Shown here piece by piece: positions 27,838-31,209 of a stretch of DNA of 35,933 bases. The stretch is from positions 1 through 35,933 of the forward strand of contig WFUT01000052.1 in the NCBI GenBank assembly GCA_015484845.1. The letters run 5' to 3'. Made by a program: the position numbers and the translations under genes. How positions within the stretch are numbered: the stretch's first letter is position 1; every line of letters begins with the position of its first letter. The stretch is from Desulfobulbaceae bacterium (lineage in GTDB: Bacteria > Desulfobacterota > Desulfobulbia > Desulfobulbales > Desulfobulbaceae). Under the pieces are notes generated by a model, which was not told where the DNA came from, made no database searches, and worked only from the letters and a program-made list of their open reading frames with translations.

Positions 27838-27844
27838 TGTACCC

Positions 27845-27898
27845 CGGCCTGAACGATCAGGCCGTTCGCCGGGTTCCACCAACGGCAACCCGGTTTTT
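27845..27898 (+). terminator. Double hairpin terminator after the DEAD-box gene
   Basis: CGGCCTGA-ACGA-TCAGGCCG (27845-27864) is a perfect 8-bp stem. It is followed by CCGGGTT/AACCCGG (27869-27893) and TTTTT (27894-27898), a standard intrinsic terminator. It would separate helicase mRNA from the cold-shock gene, or act in the latter's leader if transcription starts further up. Confidence 0.7.
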
Positions 27899-27945
27899 CT
27901 CAACAACGGTTTCCCAGAGAAACCAAGTAGCAAGGAGTAGTTACA

Positions 27946-28146
27946 ATGGCTGAAGGAACAGTAAAATGGTTTAATGATGCAAAGGGATTCGGCTTCATCG
28001 AGCAGGACGGCGGCAAGGACGTTTTCGTCCACCACACCGCCATCCAGGCCCAGGGCTTCAAGAGCCTGCAGGAAGGCCAGCGGGTAACCTTTGACGTCGT
28101 CGAAGGCGCCAAGGGCCCGGCAGCAGAAAACGTCGTTGCCATGTAA
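27946..28146 (+). CDS. Cold-shock protein (CspA family)
   Basis: A 66-residue OB-fold nucleic-acid chaperone. RNP-1 KGFGFIEQ and RNP-2 DVFVHHTAI are intact, after the typical [12 protein letters not shown] start, at normal family length. AAGGAG precedes the ATG. It melts RNA secondary structure and often assists DEAD-box helicases. It has a strong terminator of its own. Confidence 0.96.
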
Positions 28147-28216
28147 TCCCACGCAACAACGATAGATCGAGCGCCAGGCATGGGCCACCCGCCCAGGGCC
28201 GGGCCGTTCGAACATG

Positions 28217-28244
28217 AAAACCCCGCCTCGGCGGGGTTTTTTTT
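28217..28244 (+). terminator. Intrinsic terminator after the cold-shock gene
   Basis: AAAACCCCGCC-TC-GGCGGGGTTTT is a near-perfect stem with a T-run of 8 on the plus strand. The rest of the gap to the next gene (28245-28454) shows no further clear element; a promoter for the following genes probably lies there. Confidence 0.92.
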
Positions 28245-28454: not shown

Positions 28455-29327
28455 ATGGGAACACTTGTTGTCAGGCACTACCTCACAGACAGTTTTGCAC
28501 GTCTGGCAGACCACACCTACGTGGAATGTGGTACGGGCAAAAAGGGATGGAGCTGCTGGGGCGGCAAAACAGGCGGCAAGGAACTGCGCCGTGGCACCGG
28601 CTCCACCAGCAGGGCGGACAGGATCGCGCAGCCCGATGAAAAAGCGGGTATCACCTGCTACCTGGTCAACGGCGTCTGCCACCAGGCCGCCAACCGGATA
28701 CTGCTGCCGGCCCGGATTACCGTCAGGGGAGCCCGGGGCTACAGGATCTCCGAAACACTCTTCGGCCCTTACGGCCGAACAGGCACCAGGCCCTGCAGGT
28801 CGCCCTTCTACAAGTACAGGAATACCAGCGGGGACCTGGCGGAATGTATCGCAAAGGCCCGGCCGGCGATTGCCGAACCCGCCCCTCGTGCCCTTTCCGC
28901 GGATGACAAGCTGGACTGGCACTACATCAGGGGCGTTCTCAAGATATATGACCAGGCCGGATCACTGCTCCAGGGCAGAAGCCCTGATCCTGCAGCACTT
29001 GCGAACTTCCAGGTCCGCCTCTTCCTGTACATGGCAGAGTTCAACCTGGGCCCCCTGCTCAGCAGAAGGCTGGCGGCCCATCTCGAAAAAGCGCGGCGTA
29101 ATCTGGAGAAAAAACGGATGCGGCTTGAACGATCCTTTGTCGAAAAAGAGATGGACGGTCACGATTTTGCCAATGCCTTCAACAGGATGACCATTGCATT
29201 CGAGGACGAGATGGCCGACATAATGAAACCCCACGAATACACAACACTCTTTGACCTGGAACCCGGCGAGCACGTGGTCCTGGCCGACCCGGCGATTGTC
29301 AAGGCAATCTATGGCCCAGGGGAATAA
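28455..29327 (+). CDS. Conserved-looking protein with N-terminal Cys/His motif domain, function unknown
   Basis: 290 residues. AGGAGG 6 bases upstream fixes the ATG at 28455. Residues 1-135 look like a compact domain with strongly patterned motifs: HTYVECGTG (20-28), GWSCWGGKTGG (31-41), GTGSTSRADRIA (48-59), AGITCYLVNGVCHQAANRIL (65-83), then GARGY and LFGPYGR. The conserved-looking Cys25, Cys34, Cys68, Cys75-His76, Cys114 and Cys131 could be catalytic, metal-binding or disulfide-forming. The feel is that of a papain-like or NlpC-like fold, but I cannot assign it. Residues 150-260 are mostly helical and charged. There is no signal peptide or membrane segment. It is the first of three co-directional unknown genes. 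Confidence 0.82.
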   Translation: MGTLVVRHYLTDSFARLADHTYVECGTGKKGWSCWGGKTGGKELRRGTGSTSRADRIAQPDEKAGITCYLVNGVCHQAANRILLPARITVRGARGYRISETLFGPYGRTGTRPCRSPFYKYRNTSGDLAECIAKARPAIAEPAPRALSADDKLDWHYIRGVLKIYDQAGSLLQGRSPDPAALANFQVRLFLYMAEFNLGPLLSRRLAAHLEKARRNLEKKRMRLERSFVEKEMDGHDFANAFNRMTIAFEDEMADIMKPHEYTTLFDLEPGEHVVLADPAIVKAIYGPGE

Positions 29328-29350
29328 TCCCCGGTCTTCCCCACAGGCAA

Positions 29351-29767
29351 ATGACCCAGGACCCTGATTACGGACCCCGCCTCTCTGACGAGGAATACGA
29401 ACGGCGTTTAACCCGGCTGTATGAAAACCTGCCCCCGGTGCCGACCAGGAAACAGGACAGGCAACTCCGCCGTCAGCAACTTGACCTTGCCATTGACCAC
29501 CGCCTTGGCCGCAATTTCCCCCAGGACCGTCGGCAAGCCCTGTGGGCAGTACAACAGAGACTGGAAAGAAAGCATTTCCTGCGCGGATGGAGTTATTTCC
29601 TGAAGCGGCTCCTGGGCAGAAGCAGGACCGGTAATGCCAGGGGGCTTGCCGACTTTCTCATGGAGGAATATGGCAAGGTACTGAGTAAATCCGAGCTGGA
29701 ACAATTTTTCGGCAGGGAGGAGGTCCGGCACCCGGACCTGCCCGTTGACCCGGACCCTCCGAAATGA
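29351..29767 (+). CDS. Small charged helical protein, unknown
   Basis: 138 residues, rich in Arg, Glu and Gln (RKQDRQLRRQQLDLAIDHRLG, RQALWAVQQRLERKHFLRGW), with a Pro-rich C-terminus. It has no membrane segment and no motif I recognise. The ribosome site is weak. It begins 23 bases after the previous gene, so the two are very probably one transcript. It could be an accessory or adaptor to its neighbours; this is inferred from position only. Confidence 0.72.
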   Translation: MTQDPDYGPRLSDEEYERRLTRLYENLPPVPTRKQDRQLRRQQLDLAIDHRLGRNFPQDRRQALWAVQQRLERKHFLRGWSYFLKRLLGRSRTGNARGLADFLMEEYGKVLSKSELEQFFGREEVRHPDLPVDPDPPK

Positions 29768-29936
29768 GCCACCAGGACCAGGAGGCGGGTGGCCCTGGGA
29801 GGGGAACGCGATTACAGGATAAGATGGAAGGTACGGCTTCGCCGGGGCCGGGTGACGGTCCCTTTGCGGATGACAAGATACGATGGCGACAGATTACCTG
29901 TCACCATCTCTGGCAGCGAGGTGGGAGGCTGGCACC

Positions 29937-30764
29937 ATGGATCACGATAAAAACGCCGAACAAAAGCAAGATATTATAGAGGATGTCATGTCACTGGTCA
30001 GTGACCTGGCAAAACATCTGCAGGAGTTTCAGAAACTGGGCCTGGAGGCAAAACCACGGTGCGGAGAGACCATTGACCGGCATCTGCCAAAGATATTTGA
30101 ATCCCACGGCGATTGCCGTCACTTTGCCGAGACCGGCATGGCGTATGCCGCACAATTTGCTGAAAAAGGCATGGAGCTTGGCTACCTTTTTGCGAGCCGC
30201 GGCATGGAACTCGGGTATGAGTTTGCCTCCAAGGGCGAAGAAGTGGGCCCCATGGCGAACCGTATCCTGTTTATGGCCACCCAGATCGGTGAAATGGCCG
30301 ACCGTATCGGAGAGATGGCGGATCGCATCCTTTTTATGGCAGACAAGATCGTTGAATTCGGCGACAGGATCGTCTATGTCGCCCAGCTTATCATGTATAC
30401 GGAACAACTGATCGTCAATGTCGGCGTGCTGATGAATGATACGTTTCGTATCATCTCCGACCTTATTCTTGCCCTTGTTGCGCTTTCAACAGGTGACAAC
30501 GCTTACCTGCAGCAGCGTCTCGAATGCCTGCAAGCCAGCCAGTCCCTCCCCTTTATCTATGAAAACATGAACCTCATGCTCAGCAACATGCATGAATTTT
30601 CACTTAAACTCCTGGAAAACGAGGACAGGCAGCGCCAGAACGAGCTGAAGGTGAGGGAGCTGCAGATCAGGCTGCGGGAAGAAACCAAGCGGGCCAATGA
30701 ATGTTTCTGTCCCTGCTTCTGTGTACCCCGGGAAGAGGAGCAAAAAGACACTGGCGAGGAGTAA
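29937..30764 (+). CDS. 11-mer/heptad repeat helical protein with CxCxCxC tail, unknown
   Basis: 275 residues. GGGAGG 8 bases before the ATG at 29937 supports this start over an in-frame ATG at 29883. Residues 63-106 are four tandem 11-residue units of the form FAxxGMELGYx. Residues 107-169 continue as nine 7-residue units of the form AxRIxxM (ANRILFM, ATQIGEM, ADRIGEM, ADRILFM, ADKIVEF and so on). Hydrophobicity rises through the heptads toward about 180 (DLILALVAL). A charged helix follows, and then ECFCPCFCVP with Cys256, 258, 260 and 262. A long amphipathic or coiled-coil rod that assembles into bundles or lies on a membrane fits best. The Cys cluster could bind metal or form disulfides. 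I know no family. Confidence 0.8.
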   Translation: MDHDKNAEQKQDIIEDVMSLVSDLAKHLQEFQKLGLEAKPRCGETIDRHLPKIFESHGDCRHFAETGMAYAAQFAEKGMELGYLFASRGMELGYEFASKGEEVGPMANRILFMATQIGEMADRIGEMADRILFMADKIVEFGDRIVYVAQLIMYTEQLIVNVGVLMNDTFRIISDLILALVALSTGDNAYLQQRLECLQASQSLPFIYENMNLMLSNMHEFSLKLLENEDRQRQNELKVRELQIRLREETKRANECFCPCFCVPREEEQKDTGEE

Positions 30765-30883
30765 AGGGCAGCGGCCGACAAGCGGCCGGGTTACTCTTTC
30801 CGGCCTGCCCCGCCTGCCGGGTGGACACGAAAAAAACAGTATGGTGCCATATGCCGTGATCGGTTACCATTGGAATTCTCCCG

Positions 30884-31172
30884 GATGAACCAGCAGGGCT
30901 GGACCAAATTTTCGGGTTACAGCCCCAACGAACCATGAAAATACAGCCGTCCCTTGCGCTGCGGCCAACCATTTTCCGATGAACCAGCAGGGCTGGACCA
31001 AATTTTCGGGTTACAGCCCCAACGAACCATGAAGATACTGCCGTCCCTTGCGCTGCGGCCAACCATTTTCGGATGAACCAGCAGGGCTGGACCAGGTTTC
31101 CAGGTCACAGTCCCAGTGAACCATGAAGATACTGCCATCCCTTGCGCCGCGGCCAACCAATTTCGGATGAAC
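30884..31172 (+). repeat. Three 94-bp tandem repeats plus a 7-base start of a fourth
   Basis: Units begin at GATGAAC at 30884, 30978 and 31072, and the next GATGAAC is at 31166, so all three units are exactly 94 bases. Units 1 and 2 are nearly identical; unit 3 has diverged by about ten substitutions. Each holds the dyad CCAGC-AGG-GCTGG and, in units 1 and 2, a longer pairing GGGCTG/CAGCCC. 94 is not a multiple of 3, so it is not a repeated protein segment, but each of units 1-3 has a 17-codon frame from ATGAACCAGCAGGGC to TGA. The array fills most of the 445-base gap before the second hybrid kinase. A divergent copy is at 195-256. Confidence 0.95.
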
Positions 31173-31209
31173 CGAACGCTGACGAGTATACAACCTTGGA
31201 GACCGGCGT

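Follow-up and report, generated by a model that had tools for sequence, protein, structure and literature searches.

Genes 1 and 2 of three adjacent genes in a Desulfobulbaceae draft genome are best explained as a self-contained, horizontally spread two-gene cassette, with gene 3 as an independent neighbour. The pairing and the spread are shown by the sequences; the explanation as a whole, which adds a probable enzyme and its regulated complex, is one we give about even chances. The window (the entire stretch of 35,933 nucleotides analysed) is one whole contig of the 3.38-Mb draft genome. Along it, a cold-shock gene is followed by a terminator, genes 1 to 3, an array of 94-bp repeats and then a sensor kinase. 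A preliminary description of this DNA had reported three same-strand genes flanked by a terminator and a repeat array, and all of these are present:

28216-28241, + strand: intrinsic-type terminator of the cold-shock gene, with an 11-pair stem and a T run; upstream edge of the variable interval
28455-29327, + strand: gene 1 (P0001), 290 aa, with AGGAGG upstream of the ATG; N-domain at approximately residues 1-130, C-terminal helical domain at approximately 149-286
29351-29767, + strand: gene 2 (P0002), 138 aa, predicted all-helical; paralogue of the gene 1 C-terminal domain, starting 23 bp past gene 1
29937-30764 (275 aa; 293 aa from 29883, the open reading frame being 29883-30764), + strand: gene 3 (P0003), an 11-mer then heptad helical rod with a CFCPCFC tail; neighbour outside the conserved pair
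30882-31173, no strand: 94-bp tandem array of 3.1 copies downstream of gene 3, with repeat copies dispersed through the genome

The gene 3 start at 29937 is the better spaced and follows GGGAGG; 29883 is an alternative. A match to the Rfam cspA thermoregulator (window 27843-28205; 79.7 bits, cut-off 78) lies over the cold-shock gene. The cassette is absent from both same-genus genomes. One of them (G001) has retained both flanking genes, cold-shock and kinase, but different genes lie in the interval. The 94-bp unit recurs as dozens of partial copies (73-91% identity) on other contigs of the genome and in two same-genus genomes. Window positions 30678-31079 are 98-99% identical to sequence in the second of these (G002; L031, L090), split there at window position 30822 between two contigs, which suggests an insertion or rearrangement at that point.

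A search of 84,980 genomes with a gene 1 profile yielded 27 loci. Wherever a close, complete gene 1 relative was found, a relative of gene 2 lay directly downstream (22/22 loci). The remaining five comprise a contig that stops within gene 1 (L050) and four divergent single-gene relatives (L056-L059). Distances between gene 1 sequences and between gene 2 sequences are correlated (r = 0.74, a value that none of 2,000 permutations reached), consistent with joint inheritance, while the co-divergence of the C-terminal domain with gene 2 may be caused solely by their wider range of distances. Gene 3 behaves differently, having no relative at E<=1 in any of the 22 pair loci. It is also absent from two pair carriers of the same family (G015 and G037). 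Family members with the pair include genomes taken as Desulfogranum marinum DSM 2058 (L053) and a Desulfobulbus MAG (L033). The preliminary description had treated the three genes as one unit, which would be undone if their homologues occurred separately; gene 3 relatives do occur apart from the others, whereas genes 1 and 2 are kept together. What had been noticed is thus partly confirmed, as a real, unnamed protein family forming a two-gene mobile cassette beside an unrelated neighbour. None of the three had been assigned to a nameable family, and this holds, as no significant match was found in Pfam, NCBIfam, PHROGs or PADLOC.

Several other loci have features of their own. A second, divergent copy of the pair (L093:3379-6698), in the HGW-Gammaproteobacteria-1 genome, has a radical SAM protein next to it. 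In the Desulfobulbus MAG (L029:2514-6130) two proteins are encoded upstream of the pair, one with a transthyretin-like domain and one of DUF6345 (7e-59). At L030:6727-8806 a divergent gene 1 relative directly precedes a ricin-B-lectin protein (PF14200, 9.5e-8) whose C-terminal half appears pore-former-like, as judged by eye only.

Gene 3 is a repeat rod, as originally described: its first repeats are 11 residues long (z = 10.4 for self-match at 11), heptads then take over (z = 12.5 for self-match at 7), and the C-terminal end reads ..ECFCPCFCVP, that is, CxCxCxC. Its heptad segment, MADRIGEMADRILFMADKI, is common to a family of mostly signal-peptide-bearing proteins, which includes a paralogue on another contig of the same genome (L002) and tandem arrays in the same order. 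Members of this family (L002, L013-L027) mostly bear signal peptides together with the motif LRLSDDIGLMADRILEMADKILVMADNIG, form tandem gene arrays in some genomes, and match no significant Pfam family. It is conceivable that all three genes belong to a single operon, with gene 3 acting as scaffold to the other two, since they share a strand, only 169 bp separate genes 2 and 3, and no + strand terminator-like site was reported between them. However, the lack of gene 3 at every pair locus and in both same-family carriers, the occurrence of its rod family in genomes without the pair, and its different GC3 make this very improbable. The three-gene unit was rejected, gene 3 being unlinked to the pair elsewhere. 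The suggestion that gene 3 is a self-assembling scaffold or partner is likewise unsupported within the unit, where the partner is gene 2, derived from the C-terminal domain of gene 1.

The origin of gene 2 was apparent from several comparisons. The gene 1 profile itself matches the adjacent downstream gene 2 in four genomes (3e-7 to 3e-5), and alignment of the gene 1 C-terminal domain with gene 2 (hhalign) gave E 8e-9 and Prob 95.8. When hmmsearch was run both ways over 7,702 stop-to-stop frames, gene 2 ORFs were recovered with the C-domain profile (best 2e-8) and gene 1 C-domains with the gene 2 profile. On a viral contig, the gene 2 profile also matched the small helical gene that follows a relative consisting of the core alone (8e-4). 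Gene 2 had been described as a small helical protein and is indeed modelled as all-helical, its predicted helix order agreeing with that of the gene 1 C-domain. By sequence comparison, then, gene 2 is a paralogue of the C-terminal helical domain of gene 1. From the reciprocal matches and the split version on the viral contig it follows that three architectures exist: a single gene encoding core plus helical domain; two genes, one for each of these parts; and, as here, the single-gene form accompanied by a second helical gene. Mean identity is 67% for the gene 1 N-domain, 28% for its C-domain and 43% for gene 2. A membrane-binding helix was considered for gene 2, and amphipathic basic segments are found in some members only.

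The conserved N-domain contains a candidate active site. Across 29 relatives the invariant polar residues of gene 1 are D19, H20, T21, Y69, N72, C75, H76, N80 and S99, and four further divergent relatives retain D-H-T, Y69, C75, H76, Q77 and N80. In the gene 1 model (pLDDT 88.5, pTM 0.88), C75 lies in the first turn of helix 72-86 and H20 begins strand 20-25; Y69, six residues before C75, is kept in all 29 rows. No invariant polar residue that could serve as a conserved third triad residue was found in the strand after C75 in the 29 relatives, and some divergent members have a His after CWGG. Gene 1 had been credited with a dense Cys/His motif domain, and binding of zinc or another metal, in place of enzyme activity, would suit the Cys-rich close relatives (C25, C34, C68, C114 and C131 are present in most). 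However, C75, H20 and H76 are the only invariant Cys or His residues in the 29 sequences, so gene 1 is not a dense metal-binding array. With the other Cys varying and lost in divergent members, and a spacing that is not that of a zinc knuckle, we regard a metal-binding domain as highly unlikely. The same description had also raised an enzyme-like, papain- or NlpC-like protein, which the invariant residues and the predicted order of secondary structure fit, although profile and fold searches gave no confirmation. Gene 1 relatives matched no Pfam family with the N-domain in native or re-ordered (papain-order) form, and no member of the pair has a Pfam match. Peptidase_C92 (PF05708) compared with gene 1 gave an hhalign Prob of 0.1 and no Pfam match. 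Searches with the whole gene 1 model returned no meaningful match in Foldseek or in VIA-align, and the same was true of fold searches with the gene 2 model. PDB sequence matches were at chance level only, and beta-lactamase matches of the re-ordered profile were discarded since they straddle the artificial joint. A literature search on the motif strings found no paper. Given no sequence or fold match, the enzyme class of gene 1 is something we infer: judging from conserved residues and the model, gene 1 may work like a circularly permuted Cys hydrolase, a proposal whose chances we consider evenly balanced and one that makes no claim of family membership.

The cassette is rare and scattered. 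It occurs in 5/193 genomes of the class and has four clear carriers among 247 Xanthomonadaceae; the N-domain profile hits 2/297 genomes in the phylum, the window's own genome included. One further match, in G059 (8.6e-4), was treated as spurious, since its reading frame contains three stops and an integrase ORF overlaps it. The gene 1 tree, which is poorly resolved, mixes Verrucomicrobia, Elusimicrobia, Campylobacterota, Nitrospinota, Desulfobacterota and Proteobacteria, the taxonomy of MAG bins being only as reliable as the binning. There are no fixed neighbours, and in the window GC3 is 0.70 for gene 1 and 0.66 for gene 2, compared with 0.85 for the flanking helicase and 0.80 for the kinase. 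The pair could instead be an accessory enzyme of metabolism or housekeeping whose small subunit is obligate, with differential loss and occasional transfer explaining why it is so sparsely spread. Most neighbours are ordinary chromosomal genes without a common theme and the N-domain is strongly conserved, in keeping with such a role; but presence in only ~2-3% of genomes of the class and of one gammaproteobacterial family, integrase islands and atypical GC3 render it unlikely.

A closer inspection of the loci reveals mobile and, in places, defence settings. The cassette comes after a tRNA-Ser(tga) gene and a DUF6538 tyrosine integrase, in that order, in Stenotrophomonas maltophilia MDMC339 (L045) and Xanthomonas arboricola (L055). 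The Stenotrophomonas locus continues with a type III restriction enzyme (REase_III 2e-178), an Old-family nuclease (4e-231) and an MNT-like protein, and GajB of Gabija (2e-221) lies nearby in Xanthomonas. A search for attachment-site copies near both tRNA-Ser genes found none. Distant single-gene relatives of gene 1 are carried on conjugative Rhizobiaceae plasmids, on the opposite strand near ArdC, flanked by a ParB-domain gene on one side and a gene for a helicase or N6-methylase on the other. Phage records contained no gene 1 relative, the sole viral one being on the single IMG/VR contig, and a gene 2 search of viral contigs found none. None of the window's three proteins matched a known defence family in PADLOC-DB 2023. 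Clear defence islands were seen at two loci only (Stenotrophomonas and Xanthomonas); most of the other cassettes viewed have ordinary chromosomal neighbours that share no theme, so the defence association is suggestive and not established. The sparse, cross-phylum, island-borne setting with plasmid relatives is suggestive of genetic conflict such as defence, a role for genes 1 and 2 that appears more likely than housekeeping.

We infer enzyme activity, complex formation, regulation and a defence role for the pair along the following lines. Gene 1 would be a cytosolic Cys-His enzyme, with C75 at the start of its helix as nucleophile, H20 at the start of an earlier strand as base and Y69 in the oxyanion position. 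The elements of its N-domain would be ordered as in a papain-like hydrolase or acyltransferase that is circularly permuted. Behind the N-domain comes the C-terminal helical domain, of which gene 2 is a second, free-standing copy. The helical domains may bind one another as well as the catalytic domain (a cis copy plus a trans copy), forming a regulated complex, and some trigger would then release or re-target the held enzyme. Less probably, the pair could be an undescribed mobile anti-phage or abortive-infection system, its effector a new family of permuted papain-like Cys enzymes kept under control by a second, free copy of the enzyme's regulatory domain. Another arrangement, a toxin-antitoxin or abortive-infection pair in which gene 1 is a growth-stopping Cys hydrolase neutralised by gene 2 as the copy of the regulatory domain, would account for two small adjacent genes of sporadic spread in islands with restriction genes and Gabija GajB, and for the split core and helical gene pair on the viral contig. 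However, the distant relatives (L056-L059, plasmid) carry gene 1 alone, so a separate antitoxin is not always needed, and it is the catalytic domain that is conserved (67% identity), whereas most toxins change fast; we therefore rate this arrangement as rather unlikely.

Genes 1 and 2 thus define an unnamed protein family with one invariant Cys-His site that the searched libraries miss. The cassette crosses phylum boundaries and is at times accompanied by restriction and Gabija genes, and its series of architectures makes it testable whether an enzyme can be regulated by a separate copy of one of its domains.

In the circularly permuted NlpC/P60 class (YiiX/Peptidase_C92, LRAT, PPPDE) the His-strand comes before the Cys-helix and a conserved Tyr lies near the active site, and PPPDE1 and LRAT may not need a third triad residue (PMC3142127). 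Gene 1 resembles this class in that its His-bearing strand precedes its Cys-bearing helix and a Tyr (Y69) is conserved. It differs in having no C92 profile similarity and no conserved third polar residue, and in its extra C-terminal helical domain and paralogous partner gene. In the active site of papain (C1), Gln19 lies six residues before Cys25. The Y69...C75 spacing of gene 1 is like that of Gln19...Cys25, with a Gly two residues before the Cys, an Asp/Asn-His strand start and a Trp-Gly after the second strand; however, the order is swapped and the re-ordered sequences match no Pfam family. Propeptide-like protease inhibitors of the I29 type have a helical regulatory domain that is joined to the enzyme in some cases and forms a protein by itself in others. 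The helical domain of genes 1 and 2 likewise exists in fused and free form, inhibition being an analogy only. Finally, as a compact pair with sparse spread and some defence-island settings, genes 1 and 2 resemble two-gene toxin-antitoxin or abortive-infection modules, but differ from them in that the partner is paralogous to the enzyme's own domain and single-gene relatives exist.
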